A DNA stretch of 38,022 nucleotides from Opitutia bacterium (lineage in GTDB: Bacteria; Verrucomicrobiota; Verrucomicrobiia; Opitutales; Opitutaceae). The stretch spans positions 1 through 38,022 of the forward strand of contig CANHAH010000013.1 of the NCBI GenBank assembly GCA_947458705.1, read 5' to 3'. Under the pieces are notes generated by a model that made no database searches, was not told the origin of the DNA, and saw only the letters and a list, made by a program, of their open reading frames with translations. Below are positions 13,986 to 36,958 of this stretch, piece by piece. The stretch's first letter is position 1. Each line of letters opens with the position of its first letter. Position numbers and translations under genes: made by a program.

Positions 13986-14187
13986 GGGCGCTGGGGTGGG
14001 AACGCAACGGGATGAGGCGGGCGCCGCAGAAAATGGGCAAGCGCGCGGTGTGAAAAAAAGGCTCAATCAGGCGTAGCCCGATATTGGCGGCCGTCCGTCT
14101 AGAGGTGGTGGTGACGATGGTCCGTGGTTGGTCAAGGTGTGCGATTTACCTCCTCATGCGGGTGGTTTCGGGCACCGTGGGGTAAAC

Positions 14188-19922: not shown

Positions 19923-19940
19923 TGCAAAAACATTTTTGCA
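19923..19940. promoter_or_regulatory. Perfect palindrome before the LacI gene, likely autoregulatory operator
   Basis: TGCAAAAA (19923-19930) and TTTTTGCA (19933-19940) are exact inverted arms spaced by CA, 35 bases before the LacI-family start. The 16-base core GCAAAAACATTTTTGC matches 13 of 16 positions of the core GAAAAAACGTTTTAGC found twice at 25479-25494 and 25767-25782. LacI proteins often bind their own promoter, so this is probably a third site of the same regulator. Confidence 0.6.
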
Positions 19941-19975
19941 TAATTGAGCCCTAGGTGTCTGTATGAGTTTCTTTT

Positions 19976-21037
19976 ATGCCTAAATCCCGATCCAAGTCCC
20001 CGGTGCGTGCGACCGTGCGTGGTATCGCCGATGCGGCGGGGGTGTCGATCGGCTCGGTTTCCTCGGTGTTAAACAATCGTCACGTTGAGCGCAGGATTTC
20101 TCCGGCGACGGTGGAAAAAATCCGCGCGGCGGCGGCGGAGTTGGGCTATTTGCCTAATATCAGCGCGCGGCGGCTGCGCAGTGGCGGATCGAGTAAAAAC
20201 ACGGTCGTGTTGGCGTTAATCACCAGTTTCGAGGCCCCGATACCGCTGGTGAAGCATTTCATCGCGGCCTTGCAGCGCGCGGTCGCGGCGGGGAGCGATC
20301 ATTCCTTCTCGTTGTTGATCGAGATGTTTCCAGCGGGGTATCTGCGAGAGATGCCAGGTTTACTCACGGGGGATCATTTTAACGCGGCGTTGATCATGAA
20401 TACGACGGCGTCGGATGATGCGTTTCTCACGCGGGTACATCTGCCTTATCCCTCCGTTTTGGTGAATCGAGCGATTCCAGGGTACGCTTCTGTGGTCGAA
20501 GCCGTCACCACGGGCGCGAGGCCTGCGGAGATTCTTTTTCGCAGTAAGCGGCGGCGCTTGGCGGTGTTGCACGGTAGTCCTTTGACGCAGAGTACACGCG
20601 CGCGCGTGGATACGTTTATGCAGCGTTCGGCCCAGCTGACGGGAAGCGCTCCAGCGGAGATCGTCGCCGAGAATCTATCGGAGACGGCCGGTTATGAGGC
20701 GTTGCAGGCTTTTCTTGAACGCGGAGGTAAATGCGATGGGTTGTACGCGGTATCGGATGCGTTGGCGTTGGGGGCTTATCGCGCGATTAAAGAGCGTGGA
20801 TTAACCATCCCAGCGGATATGGCGGTAATGGGGGTGGGCGACTATGATATCGCGCCGTTTTTTGATCCACCGCTTTCTTGTGTGGGCGTCTCGCATCGGG
20901 AGTTGGCGGAGCAGGCAAGTGCCTTGTTGTTACAACAACTCGCGCGCGGGGCCGAGCCAGGACGCACGGTGGCAGTACCGCTGGTGGAGGCGCTGCGGGC
21001 TTCTTCGGGTCACCGGGAAACATCCTCCCTTGGGTGA
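19976..21037 (+). CDS. LacI-family transcriptional regulator
   Basis: 353 residues from ATG 19976. The helix-turn-helix is TVRGIADAAGVSIGSVSSVLNN (13-34), followed by ISPATVEKIRAAAAELGYLPN and the hinge SARRLRSG (63-70), whose Leu68 matches the residue that wedges into a central CG step of LacI operators. A periplasmic-binding-protein-like sensor domain fills residues 75-340 (VALITSFEAPIPLVKHF, LYAVSDALALGAYRA, MGVGDYDIAPFFDPPLS). It should be a sugar-responsive repressor or activator. A palindrome lies just upstream, and two near-identical sites flank the divergent promoters at 25431-25846, so its likely targets are itself, the PhyH-aldolase-hydrolase operon and the TonB receptor operon. It converges on the hydrolase gene with a 31-base gap. 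Confidence 0.93.
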   Translation: MPKSRSKSPVRATVRGIADAAGVSIGSVSSVLNNRHVERRISPATVEKIRAAAAELGYLPNISARRLRSGGSSKNTVVLALITSFEAPIPLVKHFIAALQRAVAAGSDHSFSLLIEMFPAGYLREMPGLLTGDHFNAALIMNTTASDDAFLTRVHLPYPSVLVNRAIPGYASVVEAVTTGARPAEILFRSKRRRLAVLHGSPLTQSTRARVDTFMQRSAQLTGSAPAEIVAENLSETAGYEALQAFLERGGKCDGLYAVSDALALGAYRAIKERGLTIPADMAVMGVGDYDIAPFFDPPLSCVGVSHRELAEQASALLLQQLARGAEPGRTVAVPLVEALRASSGHRETSSLG

Positions 21038-21068
21038 GGCTTTAGACCCCACCCTCGAGAAAATTCGT

Positions 21069-23597
21069 TTAGCGGGCGGTTTTAGGACTTACCGTCTTTT
21101 TCTCGAGCCAGACTTCGCTGATACTGCAACCGCTACCGTTGCCTCCAAGACCGGGCTCCCGGGTCCAGTTCAATGAGAGAGTGCCAGAGGCCGTAGCGGC
21201 GCGCGGGATATCAAAGGCGACGGGCGCGATGGGATTGGCGCGCGTGATGTAGGGGTGGACTTCGATCGTGCCGTTGGCGACGAGGCGGATTTTGGCCTTG
21301 GAGCGGATGTCGGGGTAGACGACGCGTACGCGGTACTCGGCGGTGGGATCAAGCTGGGTGTAATTGAGGGTGACGCTGTTGTCGTTGAGACCCCAAGCGA
21401 AATCGACCCACGAGGTGCGCAGAGGCAGAGGCGAGCCGACACCGGCCGCGATATGTCCGTCAAGAGGGGTGCGGAGGAAAGCAGGATCGCGTTCGTGACC
21501 CAGACCGCGATCGAGGTGCGGTGAGGCGGAGGCGTTGCCGAGGTCGTCATAGAAGCCTCCGGGGCCGGGATTGGTCCAAGTTGTGATTTCCTGGAGTTGC
21601 GCGAGGCGCGTTGGTTCCCCATCGATTTGGCGAATGGCGGTGAAACGCGCGCTTAGCCACGCGCGGTTGTTAAGTGGGTAATCGAGGGTGTCCAAGCCGG
21701 CACCGCGACCTTGGCTAATCGCGCGATACAGCGGCACGCTCAGTTTCATTTTAATACTTTGAAATAGCGCTTCGGCGAGTTGGTGGGTGCGCGTGCGCCA
21801 AGCCTGGGCGGTGGGTTGGGTGATGGCTTGGTTGAGGATCTCCTCCGCTCGAGCCATCGCTGGGGCGGCACCAAGGGAGGGCGCGGTGCGGAGTGCTTCC
21901 ATGGCACTGGCCTCGAGCGCCGTTTCATGGATCAAGCGCGCGCGTACGGTGGCGTCGAAATACGCACGGTAGAGCCCCATCTGAAAGCGCCAATTTTGCA
22001 GGTCCCGCGGAGTGGCCGCGCGTTCCATCGCTTGGAATTGATTGAGGGTGGTATACACCTCTTCGTGAGGCAGCAGTGGGCCTTGCCAGTTGCGCTCCAA
22101 GGCAAAAATACCCTGGGCGAAATCATCCGCGAGTCGTTCGCTAATAAAGTAACGCCCGTAGTCACGCATAACCTCTTGGAGCGAAGCGTCGGGATCCCAG
22201 CTCAGGCGGGACCAGACAGTTTTATTAATATCATCCGTGCAGCCTTCGGAATAGGTGATCGCGCCAATGGTGTGGGGTTGGAGCAGGCGGATGATATTCG
22301 CCATGTCGTGCGGCCGGGTAGTGATCGGCTCGCGTGTCTGGGTGAGCACAAAGGCACGGTCCCAATTGGCGATCGGGTATTGGCAACTGCGAGTGTGGGT
22401 GATGTCGGGGTAGTAGCGGATCGGGTAGGAGGCGGGGATGCGCCGGCGGAATTCGGCCAGATCCATGTGCACCCAGGGCGCGAAAACGGCACCGGCGAGC
22501 CAGGCAGGTTTTTGCTCGGTGAGATAGCCGATGAAATAATCCATATCGCTCTGGTTAAAACCCTGCGGCGAGAGCCACATAGTGGCTTTGGGATGAAAAC
22601 GGCGAAGGCTAGCGGTCTGTTTTTCTAGCAACGGAAACATGAGGCGCGGCGGGGTGTGGCCGGGGTCGCCGCCGGGGACCAGAATGGCATCGATGCGGGG
22701 CAGGGCGCTGAAAACTTCCGCCCACTCTTTGAGCGCGAAGGCGACCGTCTCCGGTTTGCTGTAATCTTCATCCATCGCCGGATACCAGATCCACACATCC
22801 AGACCATATGAGGCGGCGATGCGGGACATGCCGACCATCATGTCGATTTGGGGCCGGGGAAAATGAGGGCTATCCGCATCGTCGTCGGTGCGCGGAGGCA
22901 GAAGCTCGATCGCGTTACATCCAAAAATAGTGAGCTCGCGAATGTAGCGTTCCCACTGAGGCAGATCCCAGCCGCTATAAGAGTTGGGTTTGGGACGGTA
23001 AGCGAGTTGATGGCCGCGTAAAGGGTAGCGCGGAGAAGTGGAAAGATTAAGCGGGCTTAGTAATCCGGCCCGAGCGGGCCCGAAATGAAGAGTGCGCAAC
23101 AGGTGTCCCACCCCGAAGAGCACGCCCCGCGCGTCACGACCAGCGATAATGATCATCGGTTTAGCTGAACCGGCCGCACCCAGAGTGATGAGCTGATAGC
23201 CCTCAGCGCCGACGGTGTTTTCATTGAGCCCAGCTTCCGATGCGCGCTCGCCCAAAAGTGTACGCACTTCCGAAAAGCGCCCGACGATGATCGTCGGCGA
23301 GTCGACGGCCGGTAGCGTATGGGTGATGGGCCATCGTACCAAGGTGCGTGATTCCGTTTCCTCAACCAACATGGCCACGGCTTTCTGTTCGGGGCCGGAG
23401 ACGGTTAGCGGTGTGATGACCGTTGCTCGGGTCAGATCATAGCTTAGAGCTGGAAGTCCGACGTTACGAGCAGCCGCAAATTTTTCTAAGGCGGGTGAAA
23501 TTTGCGGTTGGGCTGTGAGAATCGTGGCGCATAAGGCCGTGGCGAGACTCATGAGCGCTATGAGTCGTTGGGTGGGGCGTAGGGTAGGGGTATACAT
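21069..23597 (-). CDS. Large secreted glycoside hydrolase-like protein (GH20/GH67-type layout)
   Basis: 842 residues from ATG 23597; longer readings overlap the aldolase gene. Signal peptide about 1-30 (ending TAQP). Residues about 35-165 resemble the GH20b/GH67 N-terminal zincin-like domain: DSPTIIVGR, GYQLITLG, IIIAGRDARGVLFGVGHLLRTL. A TIM-barrel-like centre follows, with PRYPLRGHQLAYRPKPNSYS, WERYIRELTIFGCNAIELLPP, GLDVWIWYPAMDEDY, AILVPGGDPGHTPP and MWLSPQGF. A helical region and a C-terminal beta-sandwich (LNYTQLDPTAEYRVRVVYPD) end the protein. I cannot assign catalytic acids: the GH20 DE pair is not evident. It probably acts on a glycan in the periplasm or at the surface. It is the last gene of a three-gene operon, 17 bases after the aldolase. 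Exact family uncertain. Confidence 0.78.
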   Translation of the reverse strand: MYTPTLRPTQRLIALMSLATALCATILTAQPQISPALEKFAAARNVGLPALSYDLTRATVITPLTVSGPEQKAVAMLVEETESRTLVRWPITHTLPAVDSPTIIVGRFSEVRTLLGERASEAGLNENTVGAEGYQLITLGAAGSAKPMIIIAGRDARGVLFGVGHLLRTLHFGPARAGLLSPLNLSTSPRYPLRGHQLAYRPKPNSYSGWDLPQWERYIRELTIFGCNAIELLPPRTDDDADSPHFPRPQIDMMVGMSRIAASYGLDVWIWYPAMDEDYSKPETVAFALKEWAEVFSALPRIDAILVPGGDPGHTPPRLMFPLLEKQTASLRRFHPKATMWLSPQGFNQSDMDYFIGYLTEQKPAWLAGAVFAPWVHMDLAEFRRRIPASYPIRYYPDITHTRSCQYPIANWDRAFVLTQTREPITTRPHDMANIIRLLQPHTIGAITYSEGCTDDINKTVWSRLSWDPDASLQEVMRDYGRYFISERLADDFAQGIFALERNWQGPLLPHEEVYTTLNQFQAMERAATPRDLQNWRFQMGLYRAYFDATVRARLIHETALEASAMEALRTAPSLGAAPAMARAEEILNQAITQPTAQAWRTRTHQLAEALFQSIKMKLSVPLYRAISQGRGAGLDTLDYPLNNRAWLSARFTAIRQIDGEPTRLAQLQEITTWTNPGPGGFYDDLGNASASPHLDRGLGHERDPAFLRTPLDGHIAAGVGSPLPLRTSWVDFAWGLNDNSVTLNYTQLDPTAEYRVRVVYPDIRSKAKIRLVANGTIEVHPYITRANPIAPVAFDIPRAATASGTLSLNWTREPGLGGNGSGCSISEVWLEKKTVSPKTAR

Positions 23598-23614
23598 AAA
23601 AAAGCTAAAAAACT

Positions 23615-24433: not shown

Positions 24434-24494
24434 ACAAAAAGGAATGACGCACAGAGATGCCGTTGCACCAGCCAGCGCTTAAAAATTAACTCGA

Positions 24495-25430: not shown

Positions 25431-25477
25431 GGGGGTTGAGACGCATTTATCTTTAAAGCGCCGCCGCGCCCGTCACA

Positions 25478-25494
25478 AGAAAAAACGTTTTAGC
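25478..25494. promoter_or_regulatory. LacI-type operator, PhyH side
   Basis: AGAAAAAACGTTTTAGC with the perfect palindrome AAAACGTTTT (25482-25491) and the central CG typical of LacI-family operators. It lies 48-64 bases upstream of the PhyH start codon, where a bound repressor would block transcription of the minus-strand operon. The same 17 bases recur at 25766-25782. Confidence 0.72.
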
Positions 25495-25765
25495 ATTTGG
25501 TAAATGATCAGTCTTAGTCTGCAGAAGTGCCGCCCAGCCCTATGCGATTAAAGGCAGGATCGAGTTGGTCGGGTGCGAGTCAATTAGTGTGGGTTTAATT
25601 TATTTTCCCTCGAAAACGAGTGCATCAAAGACAAGTATCACTTGGTGCGGCCCGGTTTCAGTGCGCCTTCATTTCATTTCTAGGGCCAAGGACTCTCCGG
25701 ACAGCTTAAGCCAAGCGGGCTCACCCCGCTAAACAGAAAGTAATTGACCTTTGTAATGAGTCTAT

Positions 25766-25782
25766 AGAAAAAACGTTTTAGC
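25766..25782. promoter_or_regulatory. LacI-type operator, TonB receptor side
   Basis: The identical 17 bases AGAAAAAACGTTTTAGC, ending 64 bases before the receptor ATG and just after a TTGACC box at 25744. Including the flanks, TAG and CTA extend the dyad to 20 bases with 16 symmetric positions. Its centre is 288 bases from that of the first site, so one regulator could act on both promoters or loop between them. Confidence 0.72.
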
Positions 25783-25846
25783 TAAACTAGCCACAGTGCT
25801 GGTAAGCCGGTTTTCCGAAAAAATCCCCAACCCCTCCGACCTACCC

Positions 25847-28813
25847 ATGAACGTAGTTATTCCTGTTAAGATCCGTCGTGCTCAGGCATTGACGCTTTGC
25901 TGCGCATTAATTTTTAGCGTGTTAAGCGTGCTGCTACCCACGGCTACACAGGCTCAGGTGCCAGCCGAAGGCTCCATTAGCGGTTCAGTACGTAACGCGC
26001 AAACGAACGCTTTTTTGGAAGGCGTGGTGGTTTCATTGGAAGGCACAGCTTTTAGCACCACCACTCAACGTGGCGGCAGCTTTAATTTTAATCGAGTGCC
26101 CGCGGGTCGTTACACCCTGAAGGCTTTTTACACGGGCTTGGATGCTAAGGATTCCCCAGTGATCGTTGTAGCGGGACAAGCTCTGGATATTGCCGTCGGC
26201 TTGACCTCTGATGTTTATAAACTCGAAGCCTTTACGGTAGCGGGCGCGCGTGAAGGCAATGCAGCTTCAATCACTAAGCAGCGTAACGCTCAAAATGTGG
26301 TCAACGTAGTCTCCATGGATGCTTACGGTAACGTGAACGACGGCAATATTGGTAATTTTCTTCAAAAACTACCCGGCGTGGCCGTCCGCAAGGAAGCCGG
26401 TGAGATCGTCGGCGTGGGTTTGCGCGGGACACCACCTGAATTAAATTCGGTGATGCTCGACGGTGTCCGCACTGCGGCCGCGATCGCTGGGTTTACCCCG
26501 CAAGGTGATCGTGCCGCTTTGATCGACCAGATCCCTTCTGAATTTATCAAAGAAATTGAAGTCGTGAAGGGTAACATGCCGGATCAGCCGGCCGATTCGT
26601 TGGGTGGCTCTATCAATTTGGTGACCAAATCGGCCTTTGATTATCCCGGTCGAGTGGTGAGCTATCGTACGGGTCTGGCGCAAAACAGCTATCGCAGCAC
26701 GCTCGAAAACAAATTTGGCCCGAACGCCGCTTTGACTGTAATGGACACTTTTGGACCCGAACGCCGACTCGGCGTTGCTATATCCGGTAGCTATTCAAAA
26801 ACCTATAGTTTTCGTGATCGCGTCCAGATGCAACACGCAGAGCTCGATGGGCGTAACACCCAAGCTCGCACGCTCGATGACTTATACTTACGCGTGCGCG
26901 CCGGCATCGGCTCCAAGTTAGAGTATCGTTTTGATCCGTCCACCCGCATCTATCTTGATACCAGTCTTAATTATTTCGCCTCCGATCTCGATCGAGTGAA
27001 CTGGCAAGGCGCTGCGAGCAACCGCCTAGTGGCGGACTACAATGTGGTCAGCCGAGCCGCTATCGAAGCGGGCTCTGTACCGCGCACGAGCGCGGGAGCG
27101 GCTGCGGGCGTCGCGCCCGGTTATACTGATACTTATACGGAAATGTTGAACATGAATTGGACGAACCAAGCCGCCAAAGAGCACAAACGTTCGCATCAAT
27201 ACAAAGTCGGCGTTGGAGCTGAAAAAAAATGGACCGATTCCAAATTGGAATTCTCGGCCTCCTATAACCCTTCGTCCTACGATAATAATTTTTACGGCTT
27301 CACGACCACCCTTTCAGGCATCGGCATGGCTGTAGACACGCGTAATGATGCTACTCGGCCTAACTACGTCCAAACCTACGGCACCTCGGTTGCGGCGGGC
27401 ACCGATTTCAAGCGTTACCTCGCACAACGCTTTGAACAGCCCGACATCACGCGCGAAGAGGTCTCCTCGGTTCGTGCTGACTACGAGAAAAAATTTACCG
27501 ATTTAAAATTCCCTGTTACCTTTAAGAGCGGATTCAATTATCGCCACCAGCACCGCTGGTATCGCACCTACCGGCCGGTTTGGAATTATGTCGGCGCAGA
27601 CGGAGTGCGCGGCACCGTCGCGGCCACCGGAGTTAATGACGATAACATCGCTCAATTCCGCGATGCAGCTCCAGGCTATGGTGTTTTCAATAATCAGTAT
27701 CCTCAGCGCGATAAATTAAACCTCGCCCCTGTCGAAGCCCTGTTCCGCAGTACGCCAGCGTATTTTGCCCCTAACGGTACCAGCGTCTCCTTCCGTGCTC
27801 CTGCTAGCATCGCGGCTGAAAGCGTTCCCGCCACTTACGTTCAAGGTAACGTGAAATTTGGCGCCCTCTCTGTGTTGGGCGGCCTTCGCTATGAAGCCAC
27901 TAATGTGGATGCCCAAGGCGTCTTTAGTGATTCGCTTAATCCTAATCAGACCGTGCTCCGCAAAGAAGGTGATTACGCGAAATATTTCCCCAGTATCCAT
28001 TTCCGCTACGAACCCCGGCGCGATTTGGTCATGCACGCAAGCTACTCGACCAGTAGTGCGCGCCCGGCGATCAGTGTAATCGTTCCCGGCACCACGGTGA
28101 GCTATAACTCTTCCACGGGCTTGGGTTCCGTTTCGCAAAACAATCCCGGCTTGAAACCGCAATACACAGAGAATTACGACCTCTCGCTCGAGTATTATTT
28201 CGAACCCGCGGGCGTCCTTTCGGGCGGTTGGTTTCACAAGGATATTCGCGATTTCATTCAAGGTAGCTCGCGGATCGTCGGCACGGGCGCCGACAACGGT
28301 TTCGGCGGTAACTACGCGGGCTTCGATTTTTCAACACGGACCAACTTGGGCGAAGCGAAGATCGACGGCCTTGAGTTTAATTATAATCAACGCTTCACCA
28401 ATTTGCCTAAACCTTTTGATGGTCTCGGTCTCTTTGCTAATTACACCAAACTCACGACTTCCGGTAAATATTCCGACGGAGCCAACGTTTTGGCTAACTT
28501 TGTGCCCAAGACTTACAACGTCGGCCTCAGTTATGACTGGCGTGGGTTCGGCGCTCGGGTCGAATACCACTACAAGAGCGCTTATGTGAGCGGTGTGGAT
28601 AATTCCAACTTTCTGCTCAGTAACACGGTGACGGATGATCCCACGGTCGACCTCAACCTGTCCTATAAGTGGAAGCCTTGGCTCACGGCATTCGTCGATG
28701 TTGTTAACATCTACAACAACTCGCCGGATTGGTACATCGGTAACCAACAGCGCATCGTCATGAGCGAGCTTTATGGCACACGCCTAAACTTCGGTATCAG
28801 TGGTCGCTTCTAA
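25847..28813 (+). CDS. TonB-dependent receptor with carboxypeptidase-regulatory-like N-terminal domain
   Basis: 988 residues from ATG 25847. Signal peptide about 1-37 (ending TQAQ). Residues 43-120 form a carboxypeptidase-regulatory-like fold (GSISGSVRNAQTNAFLEGVVVSLEG, FNRVPAGRYTLKAFYTG), common in glycan receptors. YKLEAFTVAG (124-133) is TonB-box-like. The plug has NFLQKLPGVAVRKEAGEIVGV, MLDGVR and IKEIEVVKGNMPDQPADSLGGSINLVTK, then the beta-barrel ends GISGRF with the terminal Phe. It should carry the locus substrate across the outer membrane using TonB energy. It is first in the plus-strand arm, with a LacI-type operator about 65-80 bases upstream and a strong terminator after its stop, so it is probably expressed more than the genes behind it. 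Confidence 0.94.
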   Translation: MNVVIPVKIRRAQALTLCCALIFSVLSVLLPTATQAQVPAEGSISGSVRNAQTNAFLEGVVVSLEGTAFSTTTQRGGSFNFNRVPAGRYTLKAFYTGLDAKDSPVIVVAGQALDIAVGLTSDVYKLEAFTVAGAREGNAASITKQRNAQNVVNVVSMDAYGNVNDGNIGNFLQKLPGVAVRKEAGEIVGVGLRGTPPELNSVMLDGVRTAAAIAGFTPQGDRAALIDQIPSEFIKEIEVVKGNMPDQPADSLGGSINLVTKSAFDYPGRVVSYRTGLAQNSYRSTLENKFGPNAALTVMDTFGPERRLGVAISGSYSKTYSFRDRVQMQHAELDGRNTQARTLDDLYLRVRAGIGSKLEYRFDPSTRIYLDTSLNYFASDLDRVNWQGAASNRLVADYNVVSRAAIEAGSVPRTSAGAAAGVAPGYTDTYTEMLNMNWTNQAAKEHKRSHQYKVGVGAEKKWTDSKLEFSASYNPSSYDNNFYGFTTTLSGIGMAVDTRNDATRPNYVQTYGTSVAAGTDFKRYLAQRFEQPDITREEVSSVRADYEKKFTDLKFPVTFKSGFNYRHQHRWYRTYRPVWNYVGADGVRGTVAATGVNDDNIAQFRDAAPGYGVFNNQYPQRDKLNLAPVEALFRSTPAYFAPNGTSVSFRAPASIAAESVPATYVQGNVKFGALSVLGGLRYEATNVDAQGVFSDSLNPNQTVLRKEGDYAKYFPSIHFRYEPRRDLVMHASYSTSSARPAISVIVPGTTVSYNSSTGLGSVSQNNPGLKPQYTENYDLSLEYYFEPAGVLSGGWFHKDIRDFIQGSSRIVGTGADNGFGGNYAGFDFSTRTNLGEAKIDGLEFNYNQRFTNLPKPFDGLGLFANYTKLTTSGKYSDGANVLANFVPKTYNVGLSYDWRGFGARVEYHYKSAYVSGVDNSNFLLSNTVTDDPTVDLNLSYKWKPWLTAFVDVVNIYNNSPDWYIGNQQRIVMSELYGTRLNFGISGRF

Positions 28814-28834
28814 GCCCCTGTCGCTATCGTGCTA

Positions 28835-28868
28835 CGGCCGGTGCGCCTCAGGTGCGCCGGCCGCTTTT
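28835..28868 (+). terminator. Rho-independent terminator after the TonB receptor
   Basis: A 13-base-pair GC-rich stem (28835-28847 with 28851-28863, two G-U pairs, loop TCA) is followed by CTTTT. It starts 22 bases after the receptor stop. It overlaps any longer reading of the next gene, which supports the ATG at 28904. It may be partial, letting some transcription continue into the catabolic genes. Confidence 0.75.
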
Positions 28869-28903
28869 CTCCGCCGCTCAGATTATTTGCTCGGACTCAC
28901 TCC

Positions 28904-29818
28904 ATGTCTATTCCTGCTGCTCCTCGTCAGGGTGTATTTGCCGCCCTTTGGATACCAACCGACTCTCGTGGCCGGTTGATGAAACGCGCTCTTGCTGCGC
29001 ACCTCGCCTTTCTTCGAAAGAGTCGTGTACATGGCGTACTGGCCCTCGGTAGCACGGGTGAATTTGTTCGAATGAACCTGGCGCAGCGCCAGGAAGTGCT
29101 CGAGACCGTGGCCGAGCTGGCGGGTTCGCTCCAAGTGATTGCCAATATTTCCAGCATCCGCTTGGATGAGGTGACCGCACTCGGCAAAGTTGCGCGCCAA
29201 CTGCGCTTGCCCGGAGTAGCCATGATGCCGCCGACATTTTTTCCGGTTTCGCAGGCTGATATGCTGGAATTTTTTCTGCGGGCCGCCGAAGGCGTACAAC
29301 TTCCTGTTTATTTGTACAATTTTCCTGAGCTCACCTCAAATCGCATCGGCCTTGAACTCATCACCCAGTTCGCCAAGCGCGCGCCGATGGCGGGCATCAA
29401 GCAAAGCGGCGGGGAGTTTGCCTACCACAAAGAATTAATCGCGCTCGGTCGCGCAAAAAACTTCTCCGTCTTCTCGGGCGCGGATACCCGCTTGCCGGAG
29501 GTTTTTGCCCTAGGAGCGAATGGTTGCATCGGTGGTTTGGTGAATTTCGCACCCGAGTATATGGTGGCTATTTATGAAGCCTGCCATGCGGGCCGACCTG
29601 AAGCGTGTAAGATCGAGGCGGCGCGGATGCGTGAGATCGGTCCGGTGGTCGATCGCTTGTTGTTTCCCTTAAGTGTAGCAACCGGAATTGAAGCTCGCGG
29701 TTTTGAGCCTGGCGCACCCAAGACCGTAGTCTCGCCCGCATCTGCCAAGATTTACCGCGGCATCGTCGCTGAATTTCGGCGCAAATTTAAAGCTTGGGCT
29801 CTGCCGGTGCGCGGCTAG
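28904..29818 (+). CDS. DapA/NanA-family (class I, Schiff-base) aldolase
   Basis: 304 residues from ATG 28904. It has the (beta/alpha)8 family motifs: GSTGE (49-53) that binds the 2-keto-acid carboxylate, Tyr138 in YLYNFPELTSN, and the Schiff-base Lys166 in AGIKQSGG. The C-terminal helices follow. The family splits or joins pyruvate with an aldehyde: N-acetylneuraminate lyase, 2-keto-3-deoxygluconate aldolase and dihydrodipicolinate synthase. Placement among import and sialidase-like genes favours a catabolic lyase of a 2-keto-3-deoxy acid over lysine synthesis. It is cytoplasmic. This is a different aldolase mechanism from the HpcH-type enzyme in the other arm of the locus. Exact substrate unknown. 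Confidence 0.9.
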   Translation: MSIPAAPRQGVFAALWIPTDSRGRLMKRALAAHLAFLRKSRVHGVLALGSTGEFVRMNLAQRQEVLETVAELAGSLQVIANISSIRLDEVTALGKVARQLRLPGVAMMPPTFFPVSQADMLEFFLRAAEGVQLPVYLYNFPELTSNRIGLELITQFAKRAPMAGIKQSGGEFAYHKELIALGRAKNFSVFSGADTRLPEVFALGANGCIGGLVNFAPEYMVAIYEACHAGRPEACKIEAARMREIGPVVDRLLFPLSVATGIEARGFEPGAPKTVVSPASAKIYRGIVAEFRRKFKAWALPVRG

Positions 29819-29846
29819 CGCCCTAGCAAGACAGGGTCTTTCCCCC

Positions 29847-31271
29847 GTGGCTTTTCGCTCCTTCCGCGCTCTTTGCCATTTAAAATTCCTGGGATGGGCG
29901 GTCTGCATTAGCGGAATTTTCCCTACCCAATCCTCGGCTACGACTACGCCCGCCAGGACCGAGCGACAGCTCACTTTTGCCCCGCACAATCACAATCTCG
30001 ACAACAACGATAATTTCTCGCCCGACAATCAGTGGTTGGCGTTTGATCCGCGCGAAGACGAGACCGCCATCGCGGGTAACGCTGTCATCGCTCGCGTCTC
30101 CGTCGTTACAGGTGAAGTGCAGGAACTGTATCGTGAGCCTCTCGCGCAGCAATGGGGCCCGGGTGTCGGCGCAACTAACGTCAATCCAGTCGATGGGAGC
30201 GTGGCTTTTATTCGTGGTCTTAACAAGGCCACGGCTGAGCGACCCTATGCGATGTGGCGCCGGGTTGGCGCTTATGTGAGGATAGCCTCGCCCGGTACGC
30301 TGGGTTTTCTTGATGCTCGCGATGTGATCGCGCCGTTCACGCCGGGAGCGTTGCGCGGTGGAACCCATCGCCATGAGTGGAGCGCTGATGGTCGCTGGAT
30401 CGGTTTCACGTATAATGACGCGCTCTTGGCGGCGCGGGAGGAAAGCACCGGAGAAAAAGTGAATCTGCGCACTATCGGCGTCGCTACACGCCTCGATCGA
30501 GGCAGAGTGCGAGTGCCGCCCGGTCCAGAAAACAACGACGGTGAAATGTTTGCCGCTATCGTCGTGCGCGTTGTGCCGTCGCCTCGCCCGGGATCCGATG
30601 AAATCAGTCGCGCGTTTGAAGATGCTTGGGTGGGTCGTGAGGGTTATCGCCGGGCTGATGGCGGCCGGCAGCGCCTCGCGCGGGCCTTTCTTGGTAACGT
30701 GCGCACCAGCGAGGGCCGCGAACTCACGGAGGTGTTTATCGTGGATATTCCCGAGCGCATTGACGTACCGGGCCCCAACGGCCCGCTCGAAGGTACGACC
30801 ACCTTGATGCCCCAACCACCGCTTGGCGCAGAGCAACGGCGTTTGACTTATACCGCCACGCGAAAGTTCCCCGGCGTTGTCCTCGAACCGCGTCATTGGT
30901 TGCGCTCCTCTCCGGATGGTACCCGCATCGTGTTTTTAGCGAAAGATGATGCGGGTGTGGTGCAGGCCTATTTCATCGCGCCGCAGGGCGGCGCGATCAC
31001 GCAAATTACCCAAGGCCAAACTTCCGTGCAAAGTTGTGTGCGTTGGAGTCCTGATGGGGCTTCGATTGTTTATGTCAGCGGCCAAGCGGTGATGGTTTGC
31101 GACGCTCGACCCTCATCCAAGAGCTTTGGCGTCGCTCGAGCTTTAACGCAGCCCACTCAGCAATTGCCCGAAAACTTAGTTTGGTCGTACGACGGCCGTA
31201 CGATTGCCTTTAATCGTCGCGTGCTCACCGCTGGTCTTTGGCGGCAACAAATTTTCCTCGTCCAACCCTGA
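29847..31271 (+). CDS. DUF3748 family secreted protein (YidR-like, beta-propeller)
   Basis: 474 residues from GTG 29847, 28 bases after the aldolase. The N-terminus (about 1-32) is a signal peptide. The first recognisable block, HNHNLDNNDNFSPDNQWLAFDPRED (48-72), and repeated TolB-like WSADGRWIGFTYND, SSPDGTRIVFLAKDD, WSPDGASIVYVSG and WSYDGRTIAFNRR blades match DUF3748, whose E. coli member is YidR. The family has no established function; the blades suggest a beta-propeller that binds or cleaves a carbohydrate outside the cytoplasm. It lies between a DapA/NanA-type aldolase and a sialidase-like protein. It is probably in the same operon and acts on the same substrate, which is inference. Confidence 0.82.
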   Translation: MAFRSFRALCHLKFLGWAVCISGIFPTQSSATTTPARTERQLTFAPHNHNLDNNDNFSPDNQWLAFDPREDETAIAGNAVIARVSVVTGEVQELYREPLAQQWGPGVGATNVNPVDGSVAFIRGLNKATAERPYAMWRRVGAYVRIASPGTLGFLDARDVIAPFTPGALRGGTHRHEWSADGRWIGFTYNDALLAAREESTGEKVNLRTIGVATRLDRGRVRVPPGPENNDGEMFAAIVVRVVPSPRPGSDEISRAFEDAWVGREGYRRADGGRQRLARAFLGNVRTSEGRELTEVFIVDIPERIDVPGPNGPLEGTTTLMPQPPLGAEQRRLTYTATRKFPGVVLEPRHWLRSSPDGTRIVFLAKDDAGVVQAYFIAPQGGAITQITQGQTSVQSCVRWSPDGASIVYVSGQAVMVCDARPSSKSFGVARALTQPTQQLPENLVWSYDGRTIAFNRRVLTAGLWRQQIFLVQP

Positions 31272-31319
31272 CGCACGGATTCGCTCTTTCCAGCGTATCA
31301 TCCCATCCCCCAGTTCTCC

Positions 31320-32447
31320 ATGAAAATACCCCATTCGTTATTGGTCCTCAGCCTCATATTTGTTTGCGCCTCGCTCTCGGCTTATGCCGCCCCAGTGCAT
31401 CCCGCGGTGGTGCGCGCTGAGTTCATTCATGAGCCCACGGCTTATCCTGAATGTCATGCTTCGACTATCGTTGAGACGACCGCAGGCGGGTTATTAGCGG
31501 CGTGGTTTGGCGGCACGGCGGAATCCAATCCCGATGTTTGCATCTACGTTTCGCGCTATGAAAATGGCCGTTGGTCCTTAGGTGAGAAGGTTGCTGACGG
31601 CGTGCAGCATGACAAAAAAAGGTACCCATGCTGGAACCCGGTGTTGTTCCAGCTTCGGGATGGGCCTCTGCAGCTTTATTACAAAGTCGGTCCTCGTCCC
31701 GAGACGTGGTGGGGTATGGTTATGACTTCTCTGGATGGTGGACGCACTTGGGATCAGCCGCGGCGTCTGCCGGAAGATGTGTTAGGGCCCATCAAAAATA
31801 AACCTATCCAATTAGCTGACGGTACCTTGATTTCGGGCTCGAGCACGGAGGATCGCTCATCACGTCGCTGGGATGTCCACATCGAGCGCTCAACGGACCT
31901 TGGGCGCACTTGGCAATTGATCGGACCCCTGCCGTCCGAGGGTAAGTTTAACTCGATCCAACCCAGCGTCCTCAACCACGCCGATGGACGCTTGCAGATT
32001 CTTTGTCGCAGTAAGGAAAAAACCCTAACCACCAGCTGGTCGAGTGACCAGGGTCTCACCTGGAGTCCCCTCGTATCGTCGGGACTTTTTAATCCAAATT
32101 CAGGCAGCGATGCCGTGACGCTCGCCGATGGTCATCAACTCCTAGTTTATAATTTGCGGGAACGCGCCGGGGGTGCACCCACTAATCCTAAAGCCAACGC
32201 TCTAGGTGGCGCGCAGCCCAATATTGCTGACGCGAATGAAGATTGGGGCGTGCGCTGGCCGTTGAATGTCTCGCTGTCCGCGGACGGCCTTAAATGGGAT
32301 ATGCGTGTCACCTTAGAGGACCAGCCACTCAAGCACGGTTATGCTTATCCCGCCGTGATTCAGACCCGAGATGGTTTAGTTCACATCACCTACACGTGGA
32401 ACCGAGTGAAAATTAAACACGTCGTCATCGACCCCAAAAAATTGTGA
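31320..32447 (+). CDS. Sialidase-like Asp-box (BNR) exo-glycosidase family protein, exported
   Basis: 375 residues from ATG 31320, 48 bases after the DUF3748 gene. Signal peptide 1-23 (ending AYAA). Three clear Asp boxes, SLDGGRTW (137-144), STDLGRTW (191-198) and SSDQGLTW (241-248), and a weaker fourth (320-326), show a six-bladed beta-propeller of the BNR_2/sialidase type. The N-terminal YRIP/FRIP motif with the first arginine of true sialidases is absent; the equivalent region reads HEPTAYPECHASTIVET. It could be a glycosidase or lyase for a sialic-acid-like or uronic residue rather than a neuraminidase. It is coded in line with the aldolase and transporter of the plus arm. Confidence 0.82.
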   Translation: MKIPHSLLVLSLIFVCASLSAYAAPVHPAVVRAEFIHEPTAYPECHASTIVETTAGGLLAAWFGGTAESNPDVCIYVSRYENGRWSLGEKVADGVQHDKKRYPCWNPVLFQLRDGPLQLYYKVGPRPETWWGMVMTSLDGGRTWDQPRRLPEDVLGPIKNKPIQLADGTLISGSSTEDRSSRRWDVHIERSTDLGRTWQLIGPLPSEGKFNSIQPSVLNHADGRLQILCRSKEKTLTTSWSSDQGLTWSPLVSSGLFNPNSGSDAVTLADGHQLLVYNLRERAGGAPTNPKANALGGAQPNIADANEDWGVRWPLNVSLSADGLKWDMRVTLEDQPLKHGYAYPAVIQTRDGLVHITYTWNRVKIKHVVIDPKKL

Positions 32448-32578
32448 GCGGCCAACGCTCTAGCACCCGCTTCCACGTTTTGCGGCCACGAAGCGTGCTG
32501 CTGGTCTTTTTCGTGCACCATGCAGTTGCGCTCGCCCCCGTGAACGCCTCGTGAAACAAACCCTGACCCCTTGCTCCT

Positions 32579-33817
32579 ATGAACCCTGCCCCTAACGCCC
32601 TTCGCTACGCTTGGTTTATCGTCGCGCTTTTGTTTCCCGTCGCGCTGCTCAATTATCTCGATCGTCAGATGATGGCCACAATGAAGGCCTCCATGGTGCT
32701 CGATATCCCGAGTATCGCCAATCGCGCTGACTGGGGATTGGTGCTGGGTTGTTTCAAATGGACTTACGCCATTCTCAGTCCGTTTGGCGGCTACATTGCG
32801 GATCGTTTCAGTAAACGCTATGTGATTGGGGCGAGCCTCTTCGTCTGGTCCTTGGTCACGTGGTGGACGGGACATACGACAACTTTTAATGAATTAATCG
32901 CCGCGCGCGCTTTGATGGGCCTCAGCGAGGCATTTTATATCCCGGCTGCATTGGCGCTGATTTCAGAATATCATTTAGGCCCCACGCGTTCGCGGGCCGT
33001 GGGCGTACATCAGACCGGTATCTACGTCGGGCAGATTCTTGGCGGGTTTGCCGGCTATATGGCGGATTCACCCGATCATGGCTGGCGCTGGATGTTTTCG
33101 ACCTGCGGTATGATCGGGGTGATTTATGCGATTCCGTTGCTTGCGGCATTGCGCGATCCGGTTCGAAGCACGGCGCCGGCGGAAACGGCGGCGAGCGGTA
33201 AACCGGCCGCGTGGCGAGAGTTGCTGGGAAACCGGAATTTTATTTTACTCGTGCTTTATTTCACGTTGCCCGCGATCGCTGGTTGGGTCGTGCGCGATTG
33301 GATGCCGGAAATTTTACGCGAAAAATTCTCCCTTGGCCAAGGCAAGGCGGGCGTGAGCGCAATTCTCTATGTGCAGATCGCTTCAATTATCGGCGTGTTG
33401 ATCGGCGGCACGCTAGCCGACCGCTGGATGAAGAGCACAAATCGTGGACGCATCTTTACGAGTGCGATTGGCATGGCGTTATTTCTACCGGCGCTTTTCG
33501 GCGTGGGTAATGCGCCCACGCTCACCCTTGCTATCGTCGGACTCATCATCTTCGGCCTCGGGTGGGGATTTTTTGACTGCAACAACATGCCGATTCTTTG
33601 CCAGATTGTGCGACCCGAATCACGGGCCACGGGCTACGGGATCATGAATTTGGTAAGTATCAGTTGCGGCGGTTTCGGCGACTGGGCCTTTGGCGCCCTG
33701 CGTGATCGCCACGTTCCTTTGAATGTAATTTTTGGCGCTTTTGCCGGCGTGGCTTTATTGTCGATTTTCATCGTGTTGATGATCAAGCCGGCGCGAACGG
33801 ACCCAGTGGCGACGTGA
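32579..33817 (+). CDS. MFS transporter, anion:cation symporter-like
   Basis: 412 residues from ATG 32579 with about twelve membrane helices. NYLDRQMM in helix 1, GGYIADRFSKRYVIG after helix 2 (the MFS A motif) and ARALMGLSEAFYIPAALALISEYHLGPTRSRAVG resemble the anion:cation symporter group that moves hexuronates, glucarate and similar sugar acids. It should carry the periplasmic product of the exported enzymes into the cell. The 131-base gap before it holds no strong terminator and no full operator. It is followed 30 bases later by the sugar kinase, so both probably form the end of the plus-strand operon. Confidence 0.88.
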   Translation: MNPAPNALRYAWFIVALLFPVALLNYLDRQMMATMKASMVLDIPSIANRADWGLVLGCFKWTYAILSPFGGYIADRFSKRYVIGASLFVWSLVTWWTGHTTTFNELIAARALMGLSEAFYIPAALALISEYHLGPTRSRAVGVHQTGIYVGQILGGFAGYMADSPDHGWRWMFSTCGMIGVIYAIPLLAALRDPVRSTAPAETAASGKPAAWRELLGNRNFILLVLYFTLPAIAGWVVRDWMPEILREKFSLGQGKAGVSAILYVQIASIIGVLIGGTLADRWMKSTNRGRIFTSAIGMALFLPALFGVGNAPTLTLAIVGLIIFGLGWGFFDCNNMPILCQIVRPESRATGYGIMNLVSISCGGFGDWAFGALRDRHVPLNVIFGAFAGVALLSIFIVLMIKPARTDPVAT

Positions 33818-33847
33818 GGCGAGCATGGGTCGGGTGATTTTTTATTT

Positions 33848-35503
33848 ATGAATTATTATTTAGGAATCGATGTCGGCACGGGCAGTGCCCGCGCGGGAAT
33901 TTTTGATGCGCGTGGTTGTATGGCGGGTTCGGCCTCATTTCCGATTAAGCTCTGGCACCCGGCGCCAGATCACGTCGAGCAATCCAGTGAAGACATCTGG
34001 CGTGCTTGCGCTCGTGCCACCCGCGCAGCCTTACGCGGCGCGGGGCTGAAAGCGGCCGCCATCAAGGGCATCGGTTTCGATGCCACCTGTTCACTCGTCG
34101 CGCTTGATGCCCAAGACCGTCCGGTGACGGTGAGTACGACGGGTCGAGCCGAGCAAAATGTCGTGGTCTGGATGGATCATCGCGCCCTCGAGCAGACCGA
34201 ACGAATCAACCGCACCGGCCACGCGGTACTGCGTTACGTAGGCGGGGTCATTTCCCCTGAGATGGAAATGCCGAAACTGCTTTGGTTGAAAGAGCATCTC
34301 CCCGCGAGCTGGCAGCGGACGGCGCGGTTTTTCGATCTGCCCGATTTTCTCACCTACCGCGCGACCGGGGACGAGACCCGCTCGCTGTGCAGCACGGTTT
34401 GCAAGTGGACCTACCTCGGCCAACGCGGGGGAGACGGCGCAGGATGGAGCCGCGAATTTTTTCAGCAGATTGGCCTCGGGGATTTGGCCGCCGAGAACTT
34501 CCGGCGCATCGGCCAAACGATCCGCCCGATGGGCACTCCCTTGGGCGGCGGGCTGACTGCGCGCGCGGCCAAGGAGCTCGGTCTGATCGCGGGCACGCCC
34601 GTGGGCGGGTCTATCATCGACGCCCATGCGGGCGGCTTGGGAATGTTGGGCGCGAAGCTGGGGGGTCGAGCACCGAGGTCCTCGGCGCTCAATCAGCGCT
34701 TGGCGCTGATCGGCGGCACTTCGTCCTGCCACATGGCGGTGTCGGCGCAGCCGCGCTTTATCCGCGGCATCTGGGGGCCATATTTCTCCGCGATGATTCC
34801 GGGACTCTGGCTGACTGAGGGCGGGCAGTCGGCCACGGGAGCGCTGATCGACCACGTGATCTTCAGTCACGCGGCCTCAGCGGGACTTGTGCTCGAAGCG
34901 AAGCGCTCAGGCCGGACCATCTACGAATTACTTAACGCCCGCCTCGACACCTTGGCCGAGAGCGAGCGGGCGCCGTTTCCCGCCGCGCTTACTCGCGAGT
35001 TGCACATCCTGCCGGATTTCCACGGCAACCGGTCGCCGCGTGCCGATCCCACGCTAAGAGGAGTGATTAGCGGACTCACGCTTTCGGCCACGGCCGACGA
35101 TCTGGCGCGCCGGTATCTGGCCGCAATCCAAGCGGTCGCTTACGGGACGCGGCACATCATCGAAGAAATGAATCGCCAGGGCTATGCGATCGACACCGTG
35201 CTGATCTGCGGCGGCGGCACGAAGAACCCCGTTTTTCTGCGCGAACACGCCGATATCACGGGCTGCCGACTCGTGTTACCCGCCGAGCCGGAAGCGGTGC
35301 TACTTGGATCTGCTGTATTGGGTGCAGTCGCGGGCGGCGAACACGCTACCGTGCTCGGCGCGATGCAATCGATGAACGCAGCAGGTCGAATTATCGCACC
35401 AACGCGCGGGTCGGTGGCGCGTTTTCACGCCGCGAAGTATCGGGTGTTCCACCGTCTGCACGCGGATTTTCTGGCCGTGCGCAAGCTGATGTCCGCCGTA
35501 TAG
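33848..35503 (+). CDS. FGGY-family carbohydrate kinase (D-ribulokinase-like)
   Basis: 551 residues from ATG 33848. The phosphate-1 loop [15 protein letters not shown] (6-20), [13 protein letters not shown] (75-87), the WMDHRA stretch (108-113) and [14 protein letters not shown] with catalytic Asp258 place it in the FGGY ribulokinase/YDR109c-like branch; GGTSSCHM and [13 protein letters not shown] are the later ATP-binding signatures. It phosphorylates a ketopentose, pentitol or related sugar in the cytoplasm. Being last in the plus arm, it likely handles a product of the aldolases or of the imported sugar. It converges with the GntP-type permease at a gap of only three bases, with no terminator visible between. 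Confidence 0.9.
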
Positions 35504-36910: not shown

Positions 36911-36958
36911 TTTTGGGGTAAACGGGGTAAGGGGTAATTAGCCTGTGGAGGCGCAGAG

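Follow-up and report, generated by a model that had tools for sequence, protein, structure and literature searches.

A predicted LacI regulon in an Opitutia bacterium and its possible role in the use of 2-keto-3-deoxy ulosonic acids

Which sugar is served by a locus that combines two aldolases of different families with a dioxygenase, exported hydrolase-like proteins, and an FGGY kinase? Such a gene set lies at positions 19923-35503 of a 38,022 nt stretch of DNA from an Opitutia bacterium (the window), and a sequence-only reading had claimed it to be a divergent ten-gene locus under LacI control. ORF, Pfam, and NCBIfam checks confirmed all ten genes (Table 1). The left arm on the minus strand comprises the genes for PhyH, HpcH, and the exported hydrolase and ends at 21069; the right arm, entirely on the plus strand, codes for the TonB receptor, the DapA-family protein, the DUF3748 and BNR_2 proteins, the MFS transporter, and the FGGY kinase. 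The two arms are divergent as described, but lacI itself reads toward the left arm and is convergent with it. Consequently, it is the 365-bp intergenic region from PhyH to the receptor gene (25431-25795) that serves as the divergent promoter. Much of the gene arrangement recurs in relatives. All ten genes together were found in no other fetched stretch, and most of these stretches end at contig ends.

Table 1. Genes and putative regulatory sites of the locus, with bit scores and family cut-offs.
Feature	Position	Strand	Evidence or remark
LacI-family repressor, 353 aa	19976..21037	+	PF00356 47.4 bits (cut-off 27); PF13377 68.7 bits (cut-off 26.5)
Exported hydrolase, GH115/GH67-like predicted fold, 842 aa	21069..23597	-	no Pfam model
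HpcH/HpaI-family class II pyruvate aldolase, 272 aa	23615..24433	-	PF03328 93.3 bits (cut-off 25)
PhyH-type Fe(II)/2-oxoglutarate dioxygenase, 311 aa	24495..25430	-	PF05721 60.4 bits (cut-off 22)
TonB-dependent receptor, carboxypeptidase-like N-terminal domain	25796..28813	+	TIGR01782 426.8 bits (cut-off 310); PF00593, PF07715, PF13620
DapA/NanA-superfamily class I Schiff-base aldolase	28829..29818	+	PF00701 137.3 bits (cut-off 22.1)
DUF3748 beta-propeller, exported by eye	29847..31271	+	PF12566 111.8 bits (cut-off 27)
BNR_2 (Asp-box, sialidase-fold family) exported protein	31320..32447	+	PF13088 286.8 bits (cut-off 31.4)
MFS transporter, organic-anion/galactonate type	32579..33817	+	PF07690 154.6 bits; TIGR00893 127.8 bits (cut-off 395 missed)
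FGGY pentulose kinase, proposed D-ribulokinase	33848..35503	+	TIGR01315 673.9 bits (cut-off 408.7)
Putative LacI operator 1, 17-mer AGAAAAAACGTTTTAGC	25478..25494		PhyH side
Putative LacI operator 2, identical 17-mer AGAAAAAACGTTTTAGC	25766..25782		receptor side
Probable LacI autoregulatory palindrome TTCTGCAAAAACATTTTTGCATAA	19920..19943		upstream of lacI; inverted repeat

Predicted LacI operators in the divergent promoter

Identical copies of AGAAAAAACGTTTTAGC precede both arms. The inverted repeat TTCTGCAAAAACATTTTTGCATAA has 11-nt arms that are 91% complementary and shows 2 mismatches to the operator pattern. An exact 14-mer operator core occurred only at the two promoter sites in the whole 2.9-Mb host assembly, which is 80.6% complete. 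When one mismatch was allowed, the assembly contained 3 matches, and the reversed control pattern likewise gave 3. Since the counts are equal, the scarcity of the core in the genome is little proof by itself; what makes the case is the pairing of the sites and their conservation. In 49 stretches, the core with at most one mismatch was found 26 times versus 2 times for the reversed pattern; 21 matches remained once stretches fetched twice or more were removed. The core precedes both arms in the genomes of several relatives, and in other genera it is also present upstream of DapA operons. Because the divergent promoter holds two identical LacI-type palindromes whose core is kept in relatives, the ten genes are, by these predicted operators, one LacI regulon, as had been claimed. 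LacI relatives also share a stretch with a hydrolase relative in five other loci (L063, L064, L066, L067, L068).

The left arm and its exported hydrolase

For the hydrolase, ATG 23597 is a more likely start than TTG 23789; it gives a signal-peptide-like N-terminus, and the TTG start would overlap HpcH. The protein matched no Pfam family (E up to 0.01), no NCBIfam model, and no PDB sequence (E up to 1). Its AlphaFold2 model (pLDDT 90.2) was compared to the PDB by Foldseek, with GH115 as the best match (E 4e-21), followed by GH67 (1.5e-15), GH84, and GH20; ranks 1-11 were GH115 and ranks 12-14 GH67. The earlier designation as GH20/GH67-like thus agrees with the predicted fold. The resemblance to GH115 and GH67 is partial, with TM-scores of 0.36-0.49, a large rmsd, and an identity of only 9-16%, so that the protein matches these families by fold but not by sequence. 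It shares with these alpha-glucuronidases the predicted fold, the signal-peptide-like start, and an acidic-sugar context; unlike them, it lacks a Pfam match and represents a separate conserved family that often adjoins HpcH aldolases. Relatives of the hydrolase are encoded on 479 contig stretches, 80 of which were kept for locus comparison. HpcH was present in 32 of these 80 loci, and 27 of 84 scanned genes adjoining hydrolase relatives belonged to PF03328. The pairing was seen in Verrucomicrobiota and Acidobacteria, and the paired HpcH proteins form two groups with a mutual identity of only 22-29%.

The window HpcH protein is a member of the PF03328 superfamily, and its nearest solved structure is YfaU (2vws, E 6e-30). 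Residues E45, H46, R71, E151, and D177, which we take to be the catalytic positions, are near-invariant among 29 aligned sequences. The protein shares these residues and the PF03328 domain with HpaI, GarL, and RhmA, but it reaches only about one fourth to one third of the bits that each equivalog model needs (HpaI 117.6 of 368.8, GarL 103.8 of 406.75, RhmA 108.9 of 441). Diacids are among the known substrates of this group. The PhyH protein exceeds its family cut-off and carries the HxD...H motif with a distal arginine; the pattern HCD...H...R was present in the window protein and in at least 7 of 8 related loci scanned. PhyH of the window type was found in only 6 of the 80 hydrolase loci.

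These features could also fit a locus for (methyl)uronate glycans, e.g., those with 4-O-methyl-glucuronate, which we consider unlikely. The hydrolase would then be an alpha-glucuronidase, PhyH would demethylate, and HpcH and the DapA-type enzyme would act on keto-deoxy acids arising after oxidation or dehydration. The top fold matches of the hydrolase and the nearest models or structures of HpcH (HpaI, RhmA, GarL, YfaU) are consistent with this view. The same applies to the model of the DUF3748 protein (pLDDT 88.3), which matches many propellers, oligogalacturonate lyase (3pe7) and other lyases of this fold among them, to the RefSeq annotation of E. coli YidR as a galacturonate catabolism protein, and to the UxuA-, DHDPS-, and PhyH-family genes close to a hydrolase relative in genome G082. 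However, families of uronate isomerases, uronate dehydrogenases, and aldonate dehydratases are absent from the ten genes, the hydrolase is distant in sequence from GH115 and GH67, and the pentulose kinase would have no evident role.

The right arm and the proposed cleavage of Kdo

The kinase scored well above the cut-off of the pentulose kinase subfamily TIGR01315. It fell short of the equivalog cut-offs for AraB L-ribulokinase (PRK04123, 262.5 of 428 bits; TIGR01234, 211.8 of 583.25 bits) and xylulokinase (XylB, 150.5 of 380.25 bits). A TCSLV motif, presumably a pointer to substrate specificity, is present in the window kinase and in all 17 related loci scanned. From its sequence we propose that the enzyme is a D-ribulokinase. 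A DapA/DHDPS-family gene was located within 15 kb of the kinase gene in 9 of 16 genomes (0.43 expected, P ~4e-11) and was absent from this distance in the other 7; counted by genus, the ratio was 7 of 11 (0.42 expected, P ~1e-8), or 6 of 10 without the genus of the window. The linked DapA proteins form two visibly different groups in the alignment. An isomerase gene (Fucose_iso_C or similar) directly adjoins the kinase gene in three genomes (G484, G018, G133), and in a fourth (G298) an isomerase with 34% identity is encoded close to it. The surroundings of the kinase, isomerase, and DapA genes in G298 form an amino-sugar-like cluster, with genes of the NagB, BadF, SIS, and amidohydrolase families.

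The route had been claimed to be complete, which did not hold: the ten-gene locus contains no aldose isomerase, and neither PF02952, PF02610, nor the type of the relatives was found in the 80.6%-complete host assembly. Among 387 sampled genomes, 48 carry the isomerase family, including 28 genomes from the family of the window, and as it is so common, its mere presence is weak evidence. No kinase match was found anywhere in G006 (91% complete) or G001 (88%), two genomes of the window's genus that have the receptor, DapA, DUF3748, and BNR_2 genes, in G006 together with the whole left arm.

The DapA-type aldolase shows the GSTGE and GIK motifs of the DHDPS/NAL superfamily in the alignment and falls below the equivalog cut-offs for DapA, KDG aldolase, and NanA (TIGR00683, 81.9 of 382 bits; PRK04147, 106.7 of 281 bits). 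Together with HpcH, aldolase families of both class I and class II are present, as had been noted. Translation may start at ATG 28904 for this aldolase and at ATG 25847 for the receptor.

The type of the pentulose kinase, its DapA neighbors, and the isomerase of the relatives point to a C8 acid that yields a pentose, namely Kdo (3-deoxy-D-manno-octulosonate). Our preferred reading, to which we assign a probability of about 0.42, is that one LacI regulon imports and degrades glycans bearing 2-keto-3-deoxy ulosonic acids, with Kdo cleaved by the DapA-type enzyme. Points against it are the 7 kinase genomes without a nearby DHDPS gene, the absence of the kinase from G006 and G001, the amino-sugar-like setting in G298, the isomerase missing from the host assembly, and the few hydrolase loci with window-type PhyH. 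The exported sialidase-fold and GH115-fold proteins would release acidic sugars with the DUF3748 propeller, for which we propose a lyase- or mutarotase-like role; the BNR_2 protein is proposed to be an ulosonic-acid glycosidase. Uptake would proceed through the TonB receptor and then the MFS carrier. The DapA-type protein, by analogy a proposed Kdo aldolase (EC 4.1.2.23), would split Kdo into D-arabinose and pyruvate; D-ribulose would then be formed by an isomerase whose gene lies outside the locus, and the kinase would deliver D-ribulose-5-phosphate to the pentose phosphate pathway. An import and catabolic route for a glycan or sugar acid, as suggested before, is supported. Of the substrates named then, a sugar acid is retained, but the kinase and its neighbors favor Kdo over sialic acids (C9) and ordinary uronates.

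Known nan loci comprise the NanA lyase, the NanM mutarotase, a sialidase, and a SASA esterase. The window resembles them in its sialidase-fold protein, NanA-superfamily aldolase, beta-propeller, and dedicated transporter, and SASA-type genes are found in two related loci, next to DUF3748 in L018 and, by similarity, as a 47% match to that gene in L053. Together with the amino-sugar-like cluster around DapA in G298, this would suit a locus for Neu5Ac, Kdn, or a similar nonulosonate, with BNR_2 as sialidase, DapA as NanA-type lyase, and PhyH and HpcH acting on modifications. We regard this as quite improbable: the aldolase misses the NanA cut-offs, BNR_2 resembles sialidases of known structure only weakly in sequence, a pentulose kinase stands in place of ManNAc kinase and epimerase, neither of which is among the ten genes, and the window adds class II HpcH, PhyH, and the GH115-fold hydrolase.

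Cleavage of Kdo by such an enzyme has precedents. As cited in PMC4412817, a KDO aldolase of E. coli, purified in 1966, gave D-arabinose and pyruvate. N-acetylneuraminate lyases are described to form Kdo from these two compounds with 1-1.5% of their ManNAc activity (PMC4016182), and KDO cleavage is described for E. coli NanA and human NPL (PMC13220900). In the limited literature searched, no dedicated Kdo catabolic gene and no phrase match for Kdo catabolism were found. The later steps resemble the D-arabinose/D-ribulose use described for E. coli DarK and Citrobacter rodentium Rbl (PMC12307932) in the proposed D-ribulose FGGY kinase and in the fucose-isomerase-type gene near the kinase in the four relatives. 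DarK is described there as a D-ribulokinase that is needed for D-arabinose metabolism and encoded in the fucose locus. In the window, by contrast, an aldolase would generate the pentose within the cell, the kinase is linked to the DapA family, and no pentose transporter was identified in the locus. A further point against the preferred reading is a 2011 survey (PMC3245297) that gives annotated D-ribulokinases only for Alphaproteobacteria.

Sugar sources and the two modules

More speculatively, the substrate of HpcH would be Dha (3-deoxy-lyxo-heptulosaric acid), a C7 diacid that the enzyme would split into pyruvate and a four-carbon aldehyde acid, while PhyH would uncap 5-O-methyl-Kdo by oxidative demethylation. 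Candidate sources would be green-algal scales or theca, rhamnogalacturonan-II (RG-II), and bacterial lipopolysaccharide, which contains Kdo. In Mesostigma, the main scale components are reported to be Kdo, 5-O-methyl-Kdo, and Dha, accompanied by Gal, GalA, and Gul (PMC1413533), and prasinophyte scales and the Tetraselmis theca are further sources of this type (PMC10762512); in plants, according to PMC12168206, Kdo and Dha occur only in RG-II. It is doubtful that the full algal-scale or RG-II pathway applies, with DapA acting on Kdo, HpcH on Dha, PhyH as O-demethylase, and the GH115-fold and DUF3748 proteins as new ulosonic-acid enzymes.

The locus joins two modules that are apart elsewhere. 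DapA was present in only 6 and the kinase in 1 of the 80 hydrolase loci, many of which are on short stretches. Since most hydrolase loci show neither gene, the two arms may serve different sugars. It is rather unlikely that they are unrelated modules under one repressor, using substrates from the same biomass that are neither Kdo nor Dha. The frequent pairing of the hydrolase with HpcH rather than DapA, DapA operons without labeled PhyH or HpcH (L052, L165, L178), and the dispensable kinase in G006 and G001 would agree with this. On the other hand, the operators are conserved upstream of both arms in several genomes, PhyH, DapA, and the hydrolase are joined in L071, and L014/L069 has PhyH, hydrolase, DUF3748, and kinase genes in a row. 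Related genomes keep the genes together, so the observation that would have spoken against the earlier proposal, namely that they never occur together, was not made. Since the modules are separable in other organisms, the two arms may, but need not, serve a single substrate.

Like Bacteroides-type polysaccharide utilization loci, the window has a TonB receptor, exported proteins, a local regulator, and sugar catabolism. It differs from them in LacI control, in an MFS carrier (MFS or SSF in relatives), and in the lack of SusD, for which Pfam found no domain among the ten proteins.

If the full algal-scale or RG-II pathway is real, it would link genes to the Kdo aldolase activity known since 1966. 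Both aldolases would gain a use, and a function could be assigned to the conserved family of the hydrolase, which spans several phyla. It would also give the DUF3748 and GH115-fold families and O-demethylation by PhyH roles that are testable by cheap and specific assays.

The ten-gene locus and its predicted operators

Gene calls, made by script as simple open-reading-frame choices, and profile searches with Pfam and NCBIfam returned exactly the ten-gene order that the sequence-only reading had stated for 19976-35503, and the observed locus is real. The assembly from which the window derives comprises 2.9 Mb and is 80.6% complete. The start of the exported hydrolase is better placed at 23597, directly behind the HpcH gene. 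Judged by eye, the hydrolase, the DUF3748 protein and the BNR_2 protein have signal-peptide-like N-termini, and none was seen for PhyH, HpcH and the kinase.

The 365-bp gap between the divergent arms contains two identical copies of AGAAAAAACGTTTTAGC, one per arm and with a spacing of 288 bp, and a related palindrome is located upstream of lacI. Exact matches to the 14-bp operator core in the assembly were limited to these two copies. With one mismatch, the core was found 3 times in the whole assembly, as often as the reversed control (3), so that we claim no remote regulon members from the genome-wide search and the regulon case draws its weight from conservation. Across the window and 48 chosen loci (49 stretches, 821 kb), allowing up to one mismatch gave 26 matches to the core versus 2 to the reversed pattern; removal of repeats of the same stretches (L014/L069 and L020/L036/L067) left 21 matches, whose loci could include one species under two names. 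Nine of these precede PhyH, seven precede the right-arm receptor, and one more is present in L063. Matches were also found just before DapA in another family (L165), before a row of receptor, FG-GAP and DapA genes in another genus (L178), and, in another genus (L181), in the interval separating LacI from the receptor in a DapA operon. The operator-like match in L176 (16601) falls inside a predicted ORF, and chance is its probable cause. Three genes separate the arms in the related genome G009, and each arm has retained an operator. The paired physical sites and the conservation across relatives uphold the earlier view of a single LacI regulon, which is well supported with operators that are predicted.

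Some neighboring genes were also recorded. The 766-aa protein encoded next to lacI has no Pfam match and by eye resembles a barrel of the TonB-receptor type; similar proteins share a stretch with lacI or the hydrolase in L063, L066 and L068, and the gene may be part of the locus. The neighboring GntP/SDR set, to which relatives add a zinc alcohol dehydrogenase, resembles an L-idonate/gluconate operon and is probably outside the LacI regulon. The row of ECF sigma factor, FecR and receptor looks like a cell-surface-signalling system.

Features of the window and of related stretches (G, genomes of relatives; L, stretches fetched from relatives)
Source	Position (strand)	Feature
Window	8854-14066 (-)	ECF sigma factor, FecR, TonB-dependent receptor (1126 aa), consecutive
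Window	17586-19886	766-aa protein
Window	19976-21037 (+)	lacI
Window	23615-24433 (-)	HpcH aldolase
Window	28829-29818 (+)	DapA-family aldolase
Window	33848-35503 (+)	FGGY kinase
Window	35507-38022 (-)	GntP permease (35507-36910), then SDR (from 36959)
L022	8730-9884	Zinc alcohol dehydrogenase
G009, L038	1842	Operator
G009, L024	5584	Operator
G009, L038 / L024	1998-7919 / 1-5420	Inter-arm genes: DUF7133/cytochrome/DUF6807 protein; MFS; 3-hydroxyisobutyrate-dehydrogenase-type (GarR-like) reductase
G006, L036	9361-15857	Second set: RraA-type aldolase, MFS, DapA, BNR_2, FAD oxidoreductase
L018	14213-15832	Divergent Fucose_iso_C-type family, about 540 aa
L052	5726-7357	Divergent Fucose_iso_C-type family, about 540 aa
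L185, E. coli K-12	6063-7310	YidR
G484		Receptor, sulfatase, FG-GAP, DapA, SSF-like, BNR_2, DUF3748, kinase, isomerase
G018		DapA, MFS, receptor, BNR, GH32, DUF3748, SASA, kinase, isomerase, LacI
G010		LacI, DapA, receptor, BNR, SSF, DUF3748
G218		DapA, MFS, BNR_2, two sulfatases, DUF3748

The exported hydrolase and its HpcH neighbor

The hydrolase has no Pfam model. An order-level search (2 of 223 sampled genomes, one of them the window's own) had suggested a rare family, and this was overturned by a contig scan, which returned 479 stretches with relatives. Among the labels of the best 80 of these 479, a non-independent sample, were Verrucomicrobia, Acidobacteria, Planctomycetes and Omnitrophota. 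Identity to the window protein was at least 45% throughout an alignment of 68 sequences (66 of the 75 intact hydrolases, the window and L032). The folds closest to the predicted model (pLDDT 90.2) were those of GH115 and, next, GH67, both alpha-glucuronidases, followed by GH84 and GH20; identity was 9-16%, and TM-scores for GH115 and GH67 reached at most about 0.5. A PDB sequence search with the hydrolase gave no match.

HpcH was the commonest neighbor, present in 32 of the best 80 of 479 loci. A scan of directly adjacent same-strand genes, for which the near-duplicate loci L064, L065, L066 and L068 were dropped before the genes were chosen, covered 84 of 94 chosen genes (10 short ones omitted); 27 of the 84 were HpcH, and MFS came next with 7. 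The HpcH proteins paired with the hydrolase form two groups with 22-29% identity between them, one located upstream in Opitutus-type loci and the other downstream in the remaining loci. Such dissimilar groups suggest that the pairing probably arose or re-formed more than once. A scan of viral contigs with HpcH gave 16 pattern matches, none of them a relative.

No sugar-acid dehydratase was seen among 25 of the 73 families from the adjacent-gene scan, which fits a ready-made 2-keto-3-deoxy acid as substrate, directly cleavable by a pyruvate aldolase. In G082, however, a UxuA-family gene is located near a hydrolase relative, and a different PhyH-family gene is found near it too. PhyH of the window type occurred in 6 of the best 80 of 479 loci, each of which carries the label Opitutia, Opitutae, Opitutaceae or Opitutus.

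The right arm in relatives

The set of DapA, BNR_2, carrier and DUF3748 genes, in some cases with the kinase, recurs with MFS or SSF-like carriers in four related genomes (G484, G018, G010 and G218; see table); tblastn gene labels on relatives' loci rest on similarity only. A gene of the DHDPS family (DapA superfamily) was present in 13 of 21 fetched DUF3748 stretches, all above the family cut-off and some labelled by similarity, and the places lacking one include short contigs. The DapA-type protein did not reach the model cut-offs for a true NanA, and this assignment was dropped. Sulfatase genes adjoin the DapA/BNR_2/DUF3748 genes in G484 and G218 (L052, L055, L181), suggesting sulfated substrates in these genera. 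The second set adjoining the locus in G006 encodes an MFS protein with 82%, a second DapA with 60% and a second BNR_2 with 50% identity to the window proteins; the pair of DapA and RraA-type aldolase was seen again in L175 (by similarity).

The DUF3748 model is a beta-propeller (pLDDT 88.3). In the fold search it was matched best by a lasso-peptide isopeptidase, S9 peptidases, TolB and, as polysaccharide lyases, LOR107 and Uly1; of the listed lyases, the closest fit was to oligogalacturonate lyase 3pe7 (TM 0.50/0.61). The invariant residues H174, H176 and H350 suggest a metal or catalytic site. YidR of E. coli K-12 has the RefSeq name 'DUF3748 domain-containing galacturonate catabolism protein', and yidR is one gene distant from the D-galactonate (dgo) genes. 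Two readings are considered for DUF3748, a lyase or a mutarotase; mutarotases with a propeller fold exist, NanM being one.

The kinase clearly belongs to the FGGY pentulose-kinase subfamily (673.9 bits against a cut-off of 408.7), and all 17 related kinase loci scanned have kept the TCSLV motif, which we take to be a mark of D-ribulokinases. It did not reach the model cut-offs for a true AraB, which was dropped. Among 387 sampled genomes, 16 had the kinase; a DHDPS-family gene lay within 15 kb of it in nine, versus 0.43 expected, and in seven there was none at this distance. Counted by genus, the proportion was 7 of 11 (0.42 expected), and 6 of 10 once the window's genus is removed. A search of 12 more relatives found the kinase in five, which were not added to this count: DapA adjoins it in G008 and G012, contig ends truncate the stretches of G033 and G007, and the fifth genome is G010. 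The kinase-linked DapA proteins fall into two visibly different groups in an alignment (no tree), which argues against inheritance of the pairing as a single block.

The kinase gene has an isomerase gene as its direct neighbor in G484, G018 and G133. In G298 the two are close together, and the kinase/isomerase/DapA cluster there looks amino-sugar-like. This isomerase, of the divergent Fucose_iso_C-type family, was downgraded as strong proof of a pathway, since its genes are widespread: 48 of the 387 genomes sampled in the phylum have one, and 28 of the 48 belong to the window's family. A search of the incomplete assembly that holds the window gave neither this isomerase nor one of the AraA type. 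For the AraA type (PF02610), no gene was found in G000, G006, G009 and G012, and G018 and G484 encode one at another place. A PDB sequence search with the isomerase gave no match.

A candidate route for Kdo

A NanA-superfamily aldolase, a fucose/D-arabinose-type isomerase and a pentulose kinase are coherent if the aldolase releases a pentose. When a 2-keto-3-deoxy acid loses pyruvate, the remainder is a pentose only if the acid is C8, and the common one is Kdo. The DapA-type aldolase would thus cleave Kdo to pyruvate and D-arabinose, which isomerase and kinase would convert to D-ribulose-5-phosphate; we rate this route a little below even odds. HpcH might cleave the C7 diacid Dha, which would suit the known use of diacids, among other substrates, by its group, but we consider this doubtful. 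Still less probable is that PhyH, an Fe(II)/2-oxoglutarate dioxygenase, would act as a demethylase and strip the O-methyl group from 5-O-methyl-Kdo.

The cited sources describe relevant activities. An E. coli KDO aldolase forming D-arabinose and pyruvate from Kdo was purified in 1966, the gene not being given (cited in PMC4412817). With D-arabinose and pyruvate, N-acetylneuraminate lyases show a Kdo-forming side activity of 1-1.5% (PMC4016182). Cleavage of Kdo is described for E. coli NanA and human NPL (PMC13220900). DarK is a D-ribulokinase required for D-arabinose metabolism of E. coli (PMC12307932), and in a 2011 survey all annotated D-ribulokinases fell within Alphaproteobacteria (PMC3245297). 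The scales of green algae have Kdo, 5-O-methyl-Kdo and Dha as their main sugar acids, together with Gal, GalA and Gul (PMC1413533; PMC10762512). In plants, Kdo and Dha are confined to RG-II (PMC12168206), and Kdo is also a constituent of lipopolysaccharide (PMC13220900).

The kinase had no match anywhere in the assemblies of G006 (91% complete) and G001, both of the window's genus. Receptor, DapA, DUF3748 and BNR_2 are present in both, and G006 has LacI and the entire left arm as well. In these genomes the kinase step is dispensable, is taken over by a different enzyme, or falls in a gap of the assembly. This absence lowered the probability of the Kdo explanation as a whole to about 0.42 and slightly raised two rivals.

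We infer the substrate of the locus as a specific, testable proposal. A phrase search within a limited literature collection found no publication on Kdo catabolism, three that use 'Kdo aldolase' or a synonym, and one that mentions DUF3748; the 'Kdo aldolase' of PMC4016182 is an engineered L-KDO aldolase. We regard the locus as a new version of a sialic-acid-type catabolic locus rather than a new type of system.
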